DNA of 64,000 nucleotides, taken from assembly GCA_018824405.1 (NCBI GenBank), contig JAHJGO010000016.1, positions 186,001-250,000 of the forward strand, written 5' to 3'. A model generated the notes under the pieces. The model made no database searches, was not told where the DNA came from, and worked only from the letters and a program-made list of their open reading frames with translations. This DNA is from Gammaproteobacteria bacterium. Lineage in GTDB: Bacteria; Pseudomonadota; Gammaproteobacteria; Burkholderiales; Sulfuricellaceae. How positions within the stretch are numbered: the first letter of the stretch is position 1; the number at the start of each line of letters is the position of its first letter. This document shows positions 7,086-14,537 of the stretch, in pieces. The translations under genes and the position numbers were made by a program.

Positions 7086-8150
7086 ATGACGATTGCGCCC
7101 TGGCGCTTGATTGACACCGGCCTGCGTTCGGCGGCTGAAAATATTGCGCTCAACCGTGCATTGCTTGAAGCAAGGCAGGCGGGAGAAAGCCCATCCACCC
7201 TGCGCTTTCTGCAATTCACTCCTTCCGCCTTGCTGGGCTTTCATCAAAGCGCGGAGCAGGAACTCGACCTTGATTATTGCCGGGCGCATGGGGTCACGGT
7301 GCAGCGGCGAATCACCGGCGGTGGGGCAATCTATTTCGATGCGACCCAGCTCGGCTGGGAGCTGTATCTGCACAAGCACGATCTGGGCACTGCTGACATG
7401 GCTGCCATTGCCCGTCGCCTCTGTGAGGCAGCTGCACGCGGCATCAGTTCGCTGGGTGTGGACGCTCGCTACCGCCCGCGTAACGACATCGAAGTGGATG
7501 GGCGCAAGGTTTCCGGCACCGGCGGCGTGTTCGAGGGCGATGCGTTGATGTATCAGGGGACGCTGCTGGTGCAATTCGATGTGGAAAAAATGCTGCGTGT
7601 ACTGCGCATTCCTGCCGAAAAACTCTCCGACAAAGCCATCGCTTCAGCCCGCGAACGGGTGGCGAATCTGGCGGATTTGCTGGGCTTTGTGCCGCCGCTG
7701 GATCTGGTTAAAAAGGCCTTGTCCGAGGCTTTTGGCGCGGAATTCGGCGTGGATTTTGTCGAAAGCGGGCTGTTGCCGCCGGAGCAGGCCCGCTATCAGG
7801 TTGCGCTGGCCGAGATCAATACGCCGGCGTGGGTGGGCCAGGTGGCAAAGCCTGCCTCGGATATGCCCATCGTTGAAGCCGTACGGAAGTTTTCCGGCGG
7901 CCTGCTGCATGCCTCGCTGGCCTATGATGCCAAGCGGCGGCGCATTGCCCAGGCGTGGTTCAGCGGCGATTTTTTTATCAATCCCCAGCGCACGGTGGCC
8001 GACCTGGAAGCCGCGCTGCGCAATACCCCAGCGGATCAGGCGCAAGAAATCGTGCGTGCCTTTTTCTCTGAGCGGTCGGTGGATATGTTGCTGCTCCAAC
8101 CCGATGATTTTATTGCCGTGATCGTGCAGGCGCTGGCTGATGCAGATTGA
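7086..8150 (+). CDS. Lipoate--protein ligase family protein (LplA/sLpl-like)
   Basis: A 354-aa member of the biotin/lipoate A/B ligase fold. Visible motifs are QRRITGGGAIYFD (the lipoyl-AMP loop, RRxSGGGAVxHD in LplA), RPRNDIEVDGRKVSGTGG with the catalytic lysine region, and YQGTLLVQFDVEKMLRVL. About 100 C-terminal residues resemble the LplA accessory domain, so adenylation and transfer may both be present. It overlaps the next gene by 11 nt and is followed by a flavoprotein and a radical-SAM protein. That set matches the sLpl(AB)-LipT-LipS lipoate-assembly route described in sulfur oxidisers with the sHdr pathway. The ligase family is clear. Its target, probably a lipoate-binding LbpA rather than a 2-oxoacid dehydrogenase, is inferred. 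Confidence 0.85.
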   Translation: MTIAPWRLIDTGLRSAAENIALNRALLEARQAGESPSTLRFLQFTPSALLGFHQSAEQELDLDYCRAHGVTVQRRITGGGAIYFDATQLGWELYLHKHDLGTADMAAIARRLCEAAARGISSLGVDARYRPRNDIEVDGRKVSGTGGVFEGDALMYQGTLLVQFDVEKMLRVLRIPAEKLSDKAIASARERVANLADLLGFVPPLDLVKKALSEAFGAEFGVDFVESGLLPPEQARYQVALAEINTPAWVGQVAKPASDMPIVEAVRKFSGGLLHASLAYDAKRRRIAQAWFSGDFFINPQRTVADLEAALRNTPADQAQEIVRAFFSERSVDMLLLQPDDFIAVIVQALADAD

Positions 8151-9198
8151 AACCGATGTGCTGGTGATCGGCCTCGGCCCGGCGGGCGGAGCCGCTGCCC
8201 TGGCTGCTGCCCGGGGTGGCGTTTCTGTTCTGGCCGTCGAGCGCAAACTGGAAGTTGGCGTGCCGGCGCAGTGCGCCGAGTGGATTCCTCTTTCGTTGGG
8301 CCGTCATGCCCAGACGCCGGGTGTGCTGGTGCAGACAATCAGCGGCATGGAAAGCGTGTTGCCATCCGGCGCGGTGGTGCCAACCCGGACGCCGGGCCTG
8401 ATGATCAACCGGGCCGCCTTCGACCAGGCGCTGGCGCACGCCGCAGTCGAGGCGGGCGCAAGCTTGCGGCTGGACAGCGTATTGAGAAAACTCGATAGCG
8501 CGCAGCGCCGGGCCTGGGTGGAAACGCCGCAAGGGTTGCTGGAGTGTTGCTACAAACTGCTGGTTGCTGCTGACGGTCCTTATTCTGGTGTTGCGAAGCA
8601 ATTAGGGCTGCCGCGCCAACCTGTGGTGCATGCACGGCAGTACAACGTACCGCTCAGACAGCCGGGCAACCAGACTCGGGTGTGGCTTTCAAAGGATTAT
8701 CCGGGTGGGTACGCCTGGCTTTTCCCCAAGGGCGATGTGGCCAATCTTGGTGCTGGAATGGATAAATCTCGGGCTCCTGACCTGAAAATACCGCTCGATC
8801 AACTTCATCAAAAACTGGCCACGGAAGGCTTGGTGGGGCGGGAAATTCTTGCCCGCACCGGCGGCGCAATTCCGGTGGGTGGCTTGCGTTCTCAACTGGT
8901 GGTCGGTCACGTCATGCTGGTGGGCGATGCGGGCGGTTTCACGCACCCGATTACCGGCGCCGGGATCGATGCTGCGGTCGTTTCAGGAGCGCGCGCCGGG
9001 CAGGCTGCGGCTGCGTGGCTGAATGGCAGGAAAAATGCATTACAGGAATTCGAGGATGAGATGAGAGACCAGTTTGAAGCGTCTTTGCAGCGAGCAGTTC
9101 AACGGCGTGCCATGTCTAATTCCGCCACTTATTCCGATGCAGCGCTACGCGTAGGATGGGTGGCATTCCCGGAGTATTTTCTTGGAAAGGGTGTTTGA
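8140..9198 (+). CDS. FAD-dependent geranylgeranyl-reductase-family oxidoreductase (LipT-like)
   Basis: A 352-aa flavoprotein. The Rossmann FAD motif VLVIGLGPAGGAAALAAARGG is at residues 7-27, and a second FAD contact, GDAGGFTHPITGAGIDAA, lies near residue 265, as in the geranylgeranyl reductase / GlcF-like family. It starts inside the 3' end of the ligase gene and ends with TGA directly followed by the ATG of the radical-SAM gene, so the three genes are translationally coupled. Family members beside lipoate ligase and LipS genes have been named LipT and proposed to support lipoate assembly. A ketone or alkene reductase for isoprenoids is the alternative, but no isoprenoid genes are adjacent. 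Confidence 0.75.
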   Translation: MQIETDVLVIGLGPAGGAAALAAARGGVSVLAVERKLEVGVPAQCAEWIPLSLGRHAQTPGVLVQTISGMESVLPSGAVVPTRTPGLMINRAAFDQALAHAAVEAGASLRLDSVLRKLDSAQRRAWVETPQGLLECCYKLLVAADGPYSGVAKQLGLPRQPVVHARQYNVPLRQPGNQTRVWLSKDYPGGYAWLFPKGDVANLGAGMDKSRAPDLKIPLDQLHQKLATEGLVGREILARTGGAIPVGGLRSQLVVGHVMLVGDAGGFTHPITGAGIDAAVVSGARAGQAAAAWLNGRKNALQEFEDEMRDQFEASLQRAVQRRAMSNSATYSDAALRVGWVAFPEYFLGKGV

Positions 9199-10245
9199 AT
9201 GAGTGATCTGCGTTCTCCCGAATACGTTCAGCTAAGTACCGCTGCTGCCATTACCCTCGGGTTGATGCCGGGCAAGATGTTTCGTACCGAATGCACGCAC
9301 TGCCTGAATCTGCTGGTGACCTACCCGGAAGGTTGTCGTGCCAATTGTTCTTACTGCGGTCTGGCGAGGCATCGGGAGGAGACGCGCAACTATGCCGAGC
9401 GCAACTTTATTCGCGTGGACTGGCCAACACTTTCCTATGATGAAGTGATCGAACGGGTGAGGGCAGGCGGGGACAAGGGGCAGTTCCAGCGCATGTGTAT
9501 TTCCATGATTACCCATCCGGATTCCGATTCAGATACTCGAATTTTGCTAAAAAAATGGGTACAGGAACTGCCCCATATTCCGGTTTCCATTCTTTCCAAT
9601 CCGACGACGATGGTGAAATCGGACCTGGTGCAATTAAAAGATCTGGGTGCGGAAATCTTTACTGTTGCGCTGGATGCCGTCACCCCGGAGATTTTCGAGC
9701 AGACGCGCGGCAAAAGCGTGGAGAGTCCGCATCGCTGGGAAAAATACTGGCAGACCATCGAATGGGCTGCGGAAGTGTTCGGGCCGGAAAAATTTGGCGC
9801 CCACCTTATCTGCGGCATGGGAGAAACCGAGCGGGAAATGCTCGAGGTCTGTCAGAAAATCCGTGACCTGGGTGGGCATAACCACCTGTTTGCCTTTTTC
9901 CCCGAGCGCGGTTCGCTGATGGAAGACTGGCCTGCCTGCGATACGGCTCAATGGCGGCGGGTGCAGCTTGCGCGTTATGTCATTGACTATGCTGGCGGAA
10001 ATGCCAGAGCGATGCACTTTGACGAGCAAGGCAGGCTGATGGATTATGGCTTGCCGTCGGCTGAAGTTTCGCGATTGATCCAGTCTGGCACGCCTTTCCG
10101 CACCTCCGGCTGCCCTGGCAAGGAAGATGATATTTCCGCCTGCAACCGGCCCTACGGTGATTCGAAGCCGTCGGCTATTCTGTCCTATCCGTTTATGCTG
10201 GATGAGGATGATGTTGTGCTAGTGAGGCGGCAAATAAAGGAATAA
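9199..10245 (+). CDS. Radical SAM protein of the LipS lipoyl-synthase type
   Basis: A 348-aa radical SAM enzyme. The 4Fe-4S/SAM motif is CRANCSYC (CX3CX2C) near residue 49, preceded by an extra CTHC pair near 32. The C-terminus carries SGCPGKEDDISACNRPYGDS, with two further cysteines that could bind an auxiliary cluster, as needed for sulfur insertion. Context after sLpl-like and LipT-like genes points to LipS1 or LipS2, the two-protein lipoyl synthase that replaces LipA in some sulfur oxidisers and archaea. Only one such gene is in the window, and I cannot tell LipS1 from LipS2. BioB-like or other sulfur-insertion enzymes are the alternatives. Confidence 0.75.
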   Translation: MSDLRSPEYVQLSTAAAITLGLMPGKMFRTECTHCLNLLVTYPEGCRANCSYCGLARHREETRNYAERNFIRVDWPTLSYDEVIERVRAGGDKGQFQRMCISMITHPDSDSDTRILLKKWVQELPHIPVSILSNPTTMVKSDLVQLKDLGAEIFTVALDAVTPEIFEQTRGKSVESPHRWEKYWQTIEWAAEVFGPEKFGAHLICGMGETEREMLEVCQKIRDLGGHNHLFAFFPERGSLMEDWPACDTAQWRRVQLARYVIDYAGGNARAMHFDEQGRLMDYGLPSAEVSRLIQSGTPFRTSGCPGKEDDISACNRPYGDSKPSAILSYPFMLDEDDVVLVRRQIKE

Positions 10246-10416: not shown

Positions 10417-11844
10417 ATGAAACTGAAAAAAATTGTGGGCGTATTGGCCGCCATCGGTATTACAGCACCGGGCGTTGCAATGGCAACCAACGGTATGCTC
10501 ATGGAAGGCTACGGTCCGATCGCAACCAGTATGGGCGGCGCTTCCATGGCCTATGATAACGGTGCTGCCGGCATGGCAAACAACCCGGCAACCATCGGCA
10601 TGATGGCAAATGGCACCAATCGTCTGGATCTGGCAATTGGTGGCCTGCATCCGGATATCGATACCAAAATGGCCGGTATGCCAAATGCACATTCCGATGG
10701 CGATGCCTATTACATGCCAGCTGCGGGCTGGGTGAAGAAAGATGGCAAGCTGGCATATGGCGTAGGTGTGTTTGCTCAAGGTGGTATGGGTACTGAGTAT
10801 GGCACTACTTCCTGGCTGAGCGCTGGCACTGGCTTGGAAAATCGTTCCGAGGTGGGCGTGGGCAACCTGATTGTGCCCCTTTCCTATGATGTTTCGCCTG
10901 ACCTGAATATCGGTGGTTCGGTTGACTTCGTTTGGGCTGGCATGGACCTGAAAATGCTGATGAGCGGTGGTCAGCTCATGGATATGATGCCAACAATGTA
11001 TAACCCAGGTGCAACAAATACAGGTGGCACAGTATCCGGCACCATGATTGATGGGTTTGCGAGCATGATGGGTGGTGCTCCTGGTCAAATTAGTGCATTG
11101 AATTATGGATACTTTGACTTTTCAAATAGCAATGACTTTAGTGGTAAGGCGCATTCCACTGGCTGGGCTGGAAAGCTGGGTTTCACCTACAAAGTAAACA
11201 AGCAATTGACTGTGGGCGGTACTTATCATTCTAAAACTTCTCTCGATGACATGGAAGGTAGTGCTTCAGTTGCTTTTAATGTTGACGTAGTTGGTATGGG
11301 TACAACTACTATTCCTGTTAATGGAAAAATTGCAGTCCGTGATTTCCAGTTTCCGGAAACCTATGGTCTTGGTCTGGCTTATCAAGCTAACGACAAGCTG
11401 ATGATTGCGGTGGACTATAAGCGCATTGGCTGGGCCGATGTCATGAAGAATTTCAAGATGAGCTTCACTGCATCTGGAAACACTGGTATGGCTGCAATGT
11501 TTGACGGCACAGTAATGGACGCGACGATGTACCAGAACTGGGATGATCAGGATGTGTTCATGCTGGGTGTGGCTTACAAGGCAACTGATGCTCTGACTCT
11601 GCGCGCTGGTGTGAATCTCGCCAATAACCCAATTCCCGATGCTTATGTGAATCCTTTGTTCCCTGCGACGATCAAGGATCACTACACACTGGGTGCTGGC
11701 TATGCGTTTAGCAAGGTGTCTGAAGTGAATGCTTCTTACGTCTATGCTCCGAAAGTGACTGTAAATGCACCTGCATCTGCTGGTGGTTACTCGATCGAGC
11801 ATGCTCAAAACAACTGGCAGCTGATGTACAGCCACCGCTTCTAA
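10417..11844 (+). CDS. FadL/OmpP1/TodX-family outer membrane protein (copy 1)
   Basis: A 475-aa beta-barrel of the long-chain fatty acid / hydrocarbon transporter family. A signal peptide of about 22 residues ends at VAMA, and the mature protein starts TNGMLMEGYGPIATSMGG, the NPA-containing plug (NNPATIG) typical of FadL. It ends in YSHRF with a terminal aromatic residue, the outer-membrane insertion signal. It shares extended identity with the copy at 13167 (for example FDFSNSNDFSGKAHSTGWAG in both). In a sulfur oxidiser the substrate might be a hydrophobic sulfur compound rather than fatty acid, but that is only a suggestion from context. Confidence 0.9.
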   Translation: MKLKKIVGVLAAIGITAPGVAMATNGMLMEGYGPIATSMGGASMAYDNGAAGMANNPATIGMMANGTNRLDLAIGGLHPDIDTKMAGMPNAHSDGDAYYMPAAGWVKKDGKLAYGVGVFAQGGMGTEYGTTSWLSAGTGLENRSEVGVGNLIVPLSYDVSPDLNIGGSVDFVWAGMDLKMLMSGGQLMDMMPTMYNPGATNTGGTVSGTMIDGFASMMGGAPGQISALNYGYFDFSNSNDFSGKAHSTGWAGKLGFTYKVNKQLTVGGTYHSKTSLDDMEGSASVAFNVDVVGMGTTTIPVNGKIAVRDFQFPETYGLGLAYQANDKLMIAVDYKRIGWADVMKNFKMSFTASGNTGMAAMFDGTVMDATMYQNWDDQDVFMLGVAYKATDALTLRAGVNLANNPIPDAYVNPLFPATIKDHYTLGAGYAFSKVSEVNASYVYAPKVTVNAPASAGGYSIEHAQNNWQLMYSHRF

Positions 11845-11953: not shown

Positions 11954-12844
11954 ATGAAGAAGTTACTGGGAGCATTGCTGTTGACTGTGTGGGCGCCGTT
12001 GGCGTTTGCGATTACGCCGTATATTACCGGCGACAAAGTGACGGGTGGCGACGTGAATGCCGTGATGGGTCAGGTAGAGAAAAAACTGACGGCAGATGGC
12101 TTTACCTTGGTGGGCAAGTACTCTCCCAAGGGTGTGAGCACGCATGGCATCGTGGTGGTGACCGATAAGGGTATTCTGGATGCGATTCATAATACTGGCG
12201 GCGCGACCGTTGTTGGTGCTGGTATCCGCGTGGCTGTGAAAGCGGATGGTTCTGTAAGCTATCAGAACCCGGACTACTGGTTCCGTGCCATTTTCCGCAA
12301 ACAGTTCGGTTCAGCCGAGGGTGCCGTGAAAGCGGTGCAGGCCAAGCTGCAGAAATCGCTGGGTGCAGGCAAGGGCTTTGGTGGTGATGAATCCGCAGGT
12401 GATCTGCCCAGCTATCGCTATATGATCGGTATGGAGCGTTTCGAGTCCGACAAGAACGAACTGAAATCTCATGGTAGCTTTGAAGCCGCAGTGAAAACCA
12501 TTCAGGATAATCTGGCGAAGGGTATCAACAAGACTTCCAAGGTGTATGAAGTGATTCTGGCCGACAAGAAAATTGCTGTATTCGGCGTGGCCATGAATGA
12601 CCCTAAAACTGGGGAAGGCGTCTGGCTGAACAAGATCGGTACTGACAACGTTGCTGCAATGCCATATGAAATCTACGTGGTTGGTGGCAAGGTTAGCGCT
12701 TTGTACGGTCGCTATCGCATCGCGCTGGGCTGGCCTACGCTCGGTATGGGTACTTTCATGAAGATTAGCGACTCTCCGGATGAAATTCTGGAAACCCTGA
12801 CGGGTGTTGCTGGTGGCACATTTGAAAAATCCAGCTCCTTCTGA
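11954..12844 (+). CDS. Periplasmic protein of unknown function between two fadL-like genes
   Basis: A 296-aa protein whose family I do not recognise. The start ATG at 11954 has a good Shine-Dalgarno (AAGGAGA, 11939-11945) and opens a clear signal peptide, MKKLLGALLLTVWAPLAFA. The mature part has no cysteines in its first half, two ALA/VKAVQ-type repeat-like amphipathic segments (AEGAVKAVQAKLQKSLG and FEAAVKTIQDNLAKG) and a glycine-rich C-terminus. It has no transmembrane helix beyond the signal. Placement between two FadL-type porins suggests a periplasmic partner for the cargo they pass. A strong terminator follows. Confidence 0.7.
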   Translation: MKKLLGALLLTVWAPLAFAITPYITGDKVTGGDVNAVMGQVEKKLTADGFTLVGKYSPKGVSTHGIVVVTDKGILDAIHNTGGATVVGAGIRVAVKADGSVSYQNPDYWFRAIFRKQFGSAEGAVKAVQAKLQKSLGAGKGFGGDESAGDLPSYRYMIGMERFESDKNELKSHGSFEAAVKTIQDNLAKGINKTSKVYEVILADKKIAVFGVAMNDPKTGEGVWLNKIGTDNVAAMPYEIYVVGGKVSALYGRYRIALGWPTLGMGTFMKISDSPDEILETLTGVAGGTFEKSSSF

Positions 12845-13145: not shown

Positions 13146-13166
13146 TGTTTAAAAAACGAGGATGAT

Positions 13167-14537
13167 ATGCGACTAAAAAAAATGGCCACAGCCATGGCAT
13201 ATATGGCAATTCCGGGGGTTGCATTCGCTACTAATGGTATGAATATGGAAGGCTACGGACCGATTGCGCTGGGCATGGGCGGTGCGTCCATGGCTAACGA
13301 TAACGGTTCGGCTGCAATGATGAACAACCCCGCCACCTTGGGTTTGATGGAAGAAAGCCACCGCCTGGACCTGGCGCTGGGTATTCTTGGTCCGGATGTG
13401 AATGCCAGCATGGGTGGCAATGCTTCACGATCTTCTGCGGATTCATTTGGTGGACCCGCTCTGGGATGGAGCCGCCGGCATGACAAGGTGACCTTTGGCG
13501 TGGGTGTTTACGGCCAAGGTGGTATGGGGACTGAATATGATCCTGGCAGCTTTATGGGCGCGGGCACAGGACTTACGACACGCAGCGAGCTTGGTGTGGG
13601 GCGGTTGCTTTTTCCTATAGCCTATAACGTTTCTCCGGATTTAATCGTTGGTGGCTCGGTTGATTTCGTTTGGGCAGGGCTTGATCTGCAAATGGCTATG
13701 CCCGCGGGGCAGATGTCACAAATGGCGCAGGCTGGTCTTTTGATTCCTGCGACAAATGATGCGGCGACCGGGGCAATCCTGAATGGATTTATGAATACGC
13801 CAGCGACAGCGATGAGCAACGTCGGGTATTTCGATTTTTCAAATAGCAACGATTTTTCCGGTAAGGCTCATTCCACGGGCTGGGCTGGCAAGCTGGGAAT
13901 GACTTACAAGGTCAATACGCAATTGACGCTCGGCGCGACTTATCACTCTAAAACCGATTTGGGTGATATGGAAGCGGATGGCGCAAGGATGTTGATGATT
14001 GTTGATGCAGGCACGCCAGGTGTATCTACGATGGCCACTCTCACAGGAAAAATCAAAATCGTTGATTTTCAATGGCCTGAAACCTACGGTGTTGGCCTGG
14101 CTTATCAGGCAACTGACAAGCTGATGTTGGCAGCAGACTATAAGCGCATCGCTTGGGCAAACGTGATGAAGAATTTCCATATGGTATTCACCAGTGCGGA
14201 TATGGGAGGTATCGGCATTGACATGAAATTGCCGCAAGAATGGAAAGATCAGGATGTCTGGATGCTGGGTCTTGCATACCAGACTACAGATGCTCTGATA
14301 TTGCGAGCCGGTGTCAACATTGCGGATAATCCGGTGCCTGACAGTTTGATGCACCCTTTATTCCCCGCTATTGTAAAAAATCATTATACGGCGGGATTTG
14401 GTTATCGTTTCAGCAAGGCGTCCTCGATAGATTTTGCTTACAGCTATGCTCCAGAAGTGGAAGTTACCAACAGTTCTGGAATAACAGTGAGCCATGCTCA
14501 AAACAACATGCAGTTTATCTATAGCTTCCGCTATTAA
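13167..14537 (+). CDS. FadL/OmpP1/TodX-family outer membrane protein (copy 2)
   Basis: A 456-aa paralogue of the protein at 10417. ATG at 13167 is chosen because it has an upstream GAGGA and opens the signal peptide MRLKKMATAMAYMAIPGVAFA; an in-frame upstream extension to 13113 would run through the hairpin. The mature start TNGMNMEGYGPIALGMGG, the NNPATLG plug motif and the C-terminal YSFRY match copy 1. Divergence is concentrated in loops, for example residues around 190-230, which suggests different cargo or phage-escape selection. It probably arose by tandem duplication. Confidence 0.9.
   Translation: MRLKKMATAMAYMAIPGVAFATNGMNMEGYGPIALGMGGASMANDNGSAAMMNNPATLGLMEESHRLDLALGILGPDVNASMGGNASRSSADSFGGPALGWSRRHDKVTFGVGVYGQGGMGTEYDPGSFMGAGTGLTTRSELGVGRLLFPIAYNVSPDLIVGGSVDFVWAGLDLQMAMPAGQMSQMAQAGLLIPATNDAATGAILNGFMNTPATAMSNVGYFDFSNSNDFSGKAHSTGWAGKLGMTYKVNTQLTLGATYHSKTDLGDMEADGARMLMIVDAGTPGVSTMATLTGKIKIVDFQWPETYGVGLAYQATDKLMLAADYKRIAWANVMKNFHMVFTSADMGGIGIDMKLPQEWKDQDVWMLGLAYQTTDALILRAGVNIADNPVPDSLMHPLFPAIVKNHYTAGFGYRFSKASSIDFAYSYAPEVEVTNSSGITVSHAQNNMQFIYSFRY

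Follow-up and report, generated by a model that had tools for sequence, protein, structure and literature searches.

What does a dedicated lipoate-assembly set do in a sulfur oxidizer in which the sHdr sulfur-oxidation system cannot be detected? The question is raised by three adjoining genes, encoding the ligase sLpl(AB), the flavoprotein LipT and the radical S-adenosylmethionine (SAM) enzyme LipS2, in a 64,000-nucleotide stretch of a gammaproteobacterial genome (hereafter the window; bases 186001-250000 of the 368-kb contig JAHJGO010000016.1, here C24, in a 3.03 Mb genome that is 99% complete). The lipoate-binding protein LbpA has been assigned to sHdr as an essential part, with the reason for the existence of two LbpA types stated as unexplained (PMC6067878). 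We favour, with a probability of about 0.6, the reading that the trio supplies half of a complete sLpl(AB)-LipT-LipS1/S2 set split over two loci, belonging to a sulfur oxidizer of the Dsr type that resembles Sulfurimicrobium and has no detectable sHdr, and that LbpA2 serves an enzyme other than sHdr. Its observed basis is the gene content, the intact open reading frames (ORFs), the conservation of motifs, searches in which neither sHdrB1 nor sHdrA was found, synteny, and purifying selection. The absence of sHdr is the point of interest here, and is invisible from the sequence of the window alone.

The trio and its counterpart on the same contig

The three genes lie on the forward strand as intact ORFs, comprising sLpl(AB), a lipoate/octanoate:protein ligase with LplA and LplB parts (7086..8150, 354 aa), LipT, an FAD flavoprotein and presumed electron donor for LipS1/S2 (8140..9198, 352 aa), and LipS2, a radical SAM enzyme presumed to insert sulfur at C8 of octanoyl-LbpA (9199..10245, 348 aa). 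The 11 nt overlap between sLpl and LipT, and the TGA-ATG joining LipT to LipS2, are as described in an earlier reading of the window from its letters (the sequence-only reading), and the assignment made there to the sLpl-LipT-LipS kind is upheld by Pfam and NCBIfam families and by LipS2 cysteines of the sHdr-linked type. As the gene order of the trio is found again in many genomes, a chance arrangement is excluded.

The catalytic domain of sLpl matches PF21948 (2.8e-50, Pfam search), with the LplB-like C-terminal part (residues 268-350) matching NF053749 at 44 bits, under the model cut-off of 65 bits. The closest solved ligases are 2ars and 3r07 chain A, and the C-terminus of sLpl resembles the separate small subunit 3r07_C; it is from these domains and solved structures, rather than from a ligase tree, that the protein is recognised as combining LplA and LplB parts and as kin to the archaeal bipartite ligase. 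Identity to the sLpl of sHdr-linked clusters is 52–71%, and to the Acidithiobacillus type 47–49%. LipT is a flavoprotein of the geranylgeranyl-reductase superfamily (TIGR02032, 192 bits; cut-off 158.8) with GLGPAGG at its N-terminus, and sHdr-linked clusters have LipT in the equivalent position.

LipS2 has NF053743 as its best family, at 202 bits over model positions 1-286 of 292, missing the cut-off of 270. The two sHdr-linked LipS2 proteins tested, from Sulfuriferula (194 bits) and Acidithiobacillus (201.5 bits), also fall under this cut-off, which therefore appears ill-suited to this LipS2 subgroup. The CX3CX2C cysteines C46/C50/C53, together with C32, C35, C100, C305, and C315, are present in 17/17 sHdr-free and 49/49 sHdr-linked rows. 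A BioB-like or unrelated radical SAM protein, which the sequence-only reading had named as the outcome that would speak against it, can be ruled out, with the bioB model reaching 26 bits and the cysteines being those of sHdr-linked LipS2; the BioB of this genome is encoded by a separate gene adjoining a bioF-like ORF (by eye).

The other half of the set lies upstream on the same contig, in the order cysM-lbpA2-lipS1-murJ (C24:171-173 kb; cysM and murJ assigned by eye), outside the window and ~14 kb ahead of its start, with ~21 kb between lipS1 and sLpl. Spacings are 25 nt between cysM and lbpA2, 5 nt between lbpA2 and lipS1, and 4 nt between lipS1 and murJ. The lipS1 gene (C24:171159-172226) matches NF053742 at 187 bits (C24:171249-172052; cut-off 230), so that the curated cut-offs miss the proteins of this genome in both the LipS1 and the LipS2 model (NF053742, NF053743). 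The cysteines C70, C74, C77, C278, C325, and C326 of LipS1 are conserved in every sHdr-free and sHdr-bearing row. The statement in the sequence-only reading that the trio lies away from any shdr or lbpA gene thus stands for shdr, none of which is nearby or was found genome-wide, and falls for lbpA. The genome search it called for returned lbpA2 and a second lipS, though no shdr, and the absence of lbpA from the genome, which would have counted against it, is not what was seen.

The carrier itself is GcvH-like, with the lipoyl lysine K71 in ESGKWVGP, an N-terminal C7, and a C-terminal Gly-Cys (C145). LbpA proteins have a conserved lysine and, unlike GcvH, two cysteines (PMC6067878), and all of the LbpA hallmarks tested are present in this protein, as befits an LbpA2-type assignment; C7, K71, and the C-terminal cysteine are kept in 18/18 rows. 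A true GcvH with the ESVKA motif is encoded on contig C3, beside gcvP-like ORFs; this and the other sHdr, Dsr, Qmo, Soe, and gcv assignments in the genome of the window were made by eye unless a search is cited.

By homology with characterised systems, whose lipoylation chemistry is known (PMC10332631; PMC9585515; PMC6067878), sLpl(AB) would activate free octanoate with ATP and attach it to K71 of LbpA2, followed by sulfur insertion at C8 by LipS2 and then at C6 by LipS1, with electrons presumably supplied by LipT. LbpA2 may then carry sulfane sulfur or electrons to an enzyme that is not sHdr, probably fed by Rhd-TusA-DsrE2. The five families, the proposed reactions, and the LbpA hallmarks are shared with the lip-shdr-lbpA2 genes of Hyphomicrobium denitrificans and the lipS1-slpl-lipT-lipS2 genes of Thioalkalivibrio sp. 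K90mix (PMC10332631; PMC6067878). However, those sets are tied to shdr, with LbpA2 of H. denitrificans essential for sHdr thiosulfate oxidation (PMC10332631; PMC6067878), whereas our searches of the present genome returned neither sHdr nor LbpA1, and its set occupies two separate loci. The LipS1 and LipS2 of Thermococcus kodakarensis are likewise two one-sulfur radical SAM synthases with CX3CX2C, in which a single cysteine and a CC pair act as auxiliary ligands of LipS1 (PMC9585515). This ligand pattern is matched by our LipS1 and less exactly by our LipS2, which departs from the archaeal enzyme by an additional conserved CxxC (C32, C35) and by a spacing of ten positions rather than three between its final two cysteines.

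Lipoate assembly in genomes without detectable sHdr

Both types I and II of sHdr have sHdrB1 and sHdrA in common (PMC11582611). With the type I sHdrB1 of Sulfuriferula multivorans TTN as query, no match was obtained in any of 22 genomes of the window's family, the window's own included, whilst outside the family 38 of 50 genomes with LipS2 yielded sHdrB1. The best match to sHdrA within the family reached 131 bits, against at least 620 bits for real sHdrA. The outside survey covered 50 of the 71 named LipS2 genomes (the 80 kept loci minus nine family genomes), with 21 left out; among its 12 negatives, G067 proved sHdr-bearing after all, five are unassigned (G034, G041, G046, G059, and G070), and six are counted as sHdr-free. 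The seven CCG-domain hits in the window's own genome correspond to five proteins, with no sHdr B subunit recognised by eye among them: a glycolate-oxidase-like protein, a hydrogenase-linked protein, DsrK, an FAD-oxidase fusion, and a Qmo-linked HdrB. The hits near gcvH on contig C3, considered as a possible shdr cluster, are a glycolate-oxidase-like Fe-S protein beside gcv genes, and those on contig C12 belong to QmoA/QmoB/HdrB-like genes; both were rejected as sHdr.

LbpA1 was not found in this genome, in which LbpA2 and GcvH are the only members. The family has 17 further GcvH-like loci, all at no more than 36% identity to LbpA1, of which 15 carry ESVKA, one is the LbpA variant of G012, and one (L053) is unassigned. 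This variant occurs in G012 (L061) and G016 (L231), where it is flanked by cysM and murJ, reads ESGKWVDS at the ESGKWVGP motif, has lost the C-terminal cysteine, and has no adjoining lipS1.

Across the 22 family genomes, LipS2 occurs in 11, LipS1 in 12, LbpA (>200 bits) in 13, and DsrB in 18. LbpA2, LipS1, and LipS2 without detected sHdrB1 or sHdrA were found together in 17 proteobacterial genomes, 11 of them in the window's family and six outside it (G022-G025, G039, and G069), with the LbpA2 neighbourhood visible and free of sHdr in 16 of the 17. One such family genome (G006, loci L073/L142; 99% complete) has LbpA2 and LipS1/S2, with neither sHdrB1 nor DsrB found.

Gene order, compared over 80 named loci kept of 433 relatives and the family loci, takes three forms. 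Where enough flank is visible, sHdr-bearing loci read sHdr block-LbpA1-dsrE-LbpA2-LipS1-sLpl-LipT-LipS2, often followed by FadL, with soe genes, rhd, tusA, and dsrE2 ahead of the sHdr block in Sulfuriferula multivorans TTN and in the more distant G043. In 13 of the 17 sHdr-free genomes (eight in the family, plus G022-G025 and G069), rhd-tusA-dsrE2 stands directly ahead of LbpA2 and the sHdr-LbpA1-dsrE bracket is absent. The third form, that of the window's genus, has soe-rhd-tusA-dsrE2, lbpA2-lipS1, and sLpl-LipT-LipS2-FadL as separate pieces, the first of these seen in the window's own genome only, where it reads soeABC-rhd-tusA-dsrE2 (TusA by Pfam; a homologue of this dsrE2 is DsrE2 by NCBIfam). 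The TTN locus (L094/L234) is thus closely similar, with Soe genes and rhd-tusA-dsrE2, then LbpA2-LipS1-sLpl-LipT-LipS2-FadL, and the five proteins 58–75% identical to ours, but differs in that an sHdr-LbpA1-dsrE block separates dsrE2 from LbpA2. Sulfuricella sp. T08 (G004) and its relatives share the sHdr-free state, LbpA2, and the full lipoylation set, with DsrB present in T08, but have a single contiguous cluster rather than a split set. LbpA1 is present in 48 of 50 sHdr-bearing loci with sHdrB2 and LbpA2, and in 0/13 sHdr-free LbpA2 loci; a strict tie between LbpA1 and sHdr is nonetheless ruled out, as the sHdr-bearing loci L105 and L112 show no LbpA1.

On a LipS2 tree of 82 rows the sHdr-free state requires three changes, against a mean of 15.7 for shuffled labels, and on a five-protein tree of 72 rows it requires two, forming a group of five (support 100) and a group of eleven (support 97) that holds the window. 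The ten rows dropped from the concatenated tree had fewer than four of the five proteins and include the sHdr-free G021. With these two changes, a single origin of the state is neither established nor rejected (approximately unbiased test, p=0.29). Although NCBI assigns Sulfuriferula to the window's family, it groups with other sHdr-bearing rows. On locus evidence alone 16 tree rows are unlabelled, several of which are sHdr-bearing by the sHdrB1 search. Both trees are rooted at their midpoints with no outgroup, so that the polarity of change is read largely from synteny and from the sHdr-bearing rows of Gammaproteobacteria.

The five genes are under purifying selection in the sHdr-free genomes, and this selection is weaker than in one sHdr-bearing pair. 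In 17/17 sHdr-free genomes every one of the five proteins is covered to 80% or more by an ORF, including LipS1 of G021, where two TGA codons near the start raised the possibility of a pseudogene that was ruled out by a frame open from about query residue 12 to the end, the start alone being unclear. Over nine sHdr-free pairs, not all of them independent, the ratio of nonsynonymous (dN) to synonymous (dS) substitution rates is 0.13–0.20 for LipS1, 0.12–0.19 for sLpl, 0.15–0.30 for LipT, and 0.10–0.18 for LipS2, and for LbpA2 0.04–0.27 in eight of the nine pairs, with 0.04–0.07 in the three pairs of one group. The sHdr-bearing pair L102-L111 is mostly saturated, leaving one pair for comparison. 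Positions fixed in sHdr-bearing rows are changed in sHdr-free rows at 8 of 62 sites in LbpA2 (32, 39, 43, 50, 51, 63, 67, and 98) compared with 29 of 503 in the four enzymes (p=0.05). This excess of substitutions is a hint that a docking surface may have been released in LbpA2, though at a borderline p value it does not establish that LbpA2 evolves unlike its enzymes.

What LbpA2 may serve

That sHdr, LbpA1, and dsrE are absent while LbpA2 and its assembly line stay suggests a further partner of LbpA2. Whether LbpA2 is accordingly a general lipoyl sulfur carrier with an sHdr-independent role in these sulfur oxidizers is, in our view, an evenly balanced matter, as is, jointly with it, the proposal that the loss of the sHdr block with LbpA1 and dsrE, LbpA2 and the lipoylation set being kept, separates the two LbpA types by function. 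The odds are held at even by the patchy presence of the set in the window's genus, the G016 variant without LipS1/S2, and somewhat relaxed constraint. Several observations weigh against our reading. LipS2 occurs in only three of the eight genomes of the window's genus, and G016 has kept its LbpA variant with no match to LipS1 or LipS2. One LbpA2 pair gives a dN/dS of 0.72, at a dS of 0.06, and the sHdr-bearing pair with unsaturated dS gives 0.03–0.11, below most sHdr-free pairs. The sHdr queries were of type I only, and the weakest sHdr-free call, G039, has its LbpA2 at a contig end. Furthermore, in H. denitrificans LbpA2 works with sHdr (PMC6067878).

The presence of LipS2 in three of eight genomes implies that the module is dispensable in the genus, and makes slow decay the main rival. 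This explanation holds that the sHdr core was deleted and that LbpA2 and the lipoylation genes are drifting away without current function, for which the published absence and proposed loss of sHdr in two Sulfuricella strains (PMC6397845), the variants of G016 and G012 without the C-terminal cysteine, the weaker constraint, the substitutions in LbpA2, and the two TGA codons in G021 all offer some support. It is less easily reconciled with five genes open over at least 80% of their length in all 17 genomes, with dN/dS mostly 0.1–0.2 where both members of a pair lack sHdr, with the retention of all cluster cysteines and the lipoyl lysine, or with carriers falling in two tree groups, and we regard a relic as unlikely, though to be taken seriously. 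Somewhat less likely again is the specific proposal that LbpA2 has been re-assigned to a Qmo-type HdrCB/QmoAB complex or to Dsr, the remaining CCG-domain enzymes, which would refine our reading rather than oppose it. The window's genome has qmoA-, qmoB-, and HdrB-like genes as well as a dsr cluster (dsrA, B, E, F, H, C, M, K, L, J, O, and P), and DsrB is present in 14 of 17 sHdr-free carriers compared with 16 of 39 sHdr-bearing genomes (p=0.008, the genomes being related and not independent). However, no Qmo-type matches were obtained in the carriers G012, G021, and G024, and the absence of DsrB from the sHdr-free carriers G006, G008, and G012 counts against this proposal and against our reading at large, as does its presence in eight of nine LbpA-less family genomes, from which it follows that Dsr needs no LbpA2.

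A role in ordinary lipoylation, in which the set would salvage free octanoate for GcvH or E2 domains, gains something from the ATP-dependent type of sLpl and from the true GcvH and E2-like ORF (by eye) of this genome, yet we consider it very improbable given that classical lipB-lipA is present (by eye), that lipS1 lies immediately behind lbpA2, and that the sulfur-oxidizer sLpl that has been studied fails to recognise other lipoyl domains (PMC6067878). The view of the sequence-only reading, that one LipS instead of two makes the set incomplete or a variant, reflected the single LipS of the window and is refuted by LipS1 and lbpA2 on the same contig.

The absence of sHdr from the two Sulfuricella strains, its proposed loss, and the adjacency of the sHdr flanks were published in 2019 (PMC6397845), in a paper in which "lbpA" never occurs and "lipoate" appears only within the reference list. 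A search of the open-access literature, covering listed titles, the openings of abstracts and selected text passages, returned no earlier claim of an sHdr-independent role for LbpA2. Genomes that are free of sHdr and LbpA1 whilst keeping LbpA2 and a costly dedicated lipoylation pathway constitute a natural experiment on why two LbpA types exist, testable in cultured Sulfuricella. Should LbpA2 work without sHdr, sulfur oxidation would draw on lipoate in a second way, and metagenomes could no longer be scored for sHdr by their lbpA or lipS genes.

Genes behind LipS2 and other loci

LipS2 is followed on the forward strand by a FadL/OmpP1-type outer-membrane channel (10417..11844; PF03349, 1.7e-34), with a FadL homologue also behind LipS2 in Sulfuricella, Sulfuriferula, Thioalkalivibrio, and Acidithiobacillus loci. 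This channel might import octanoate as a free fatty acid, or else hydrophobic sulfur. The next gene (11954..12844, forward strand) encodes a secreted-looking protein with an N-terminus resembling a signal peptide (by eye), for which no Pfam family was obtained at E 0.01, three homologues likewise having none above cut-off. Homologues are again found behind FadL in sHdr-free and in several sHdr-linked LipS loci of sulfur oxidizers, making the protein a candidate new family. A second FadL/OmpP1-type channel lies at 13164..14537 on the same strand (PF03349, 2.7e-40), with an 82% identical copy in the nearest relative, G019.

Elsewhere in the genome, a 524 aa protein (C5:57589-59163; L025:7590-9164) fuses a lipoate-ligase catalytic domain to DUF116, and its gene adjoins a second ATP-synthase-like cluster (by eye), possibly marking another lipoyl-linked system. 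Additionally, hydrogen oxidation is suggested by a cluster of nickel-iron hydrogenase and maturation genes (C8:46000-60000, L024; by eye) that includes an Fe-S subunit with a CCG domain.

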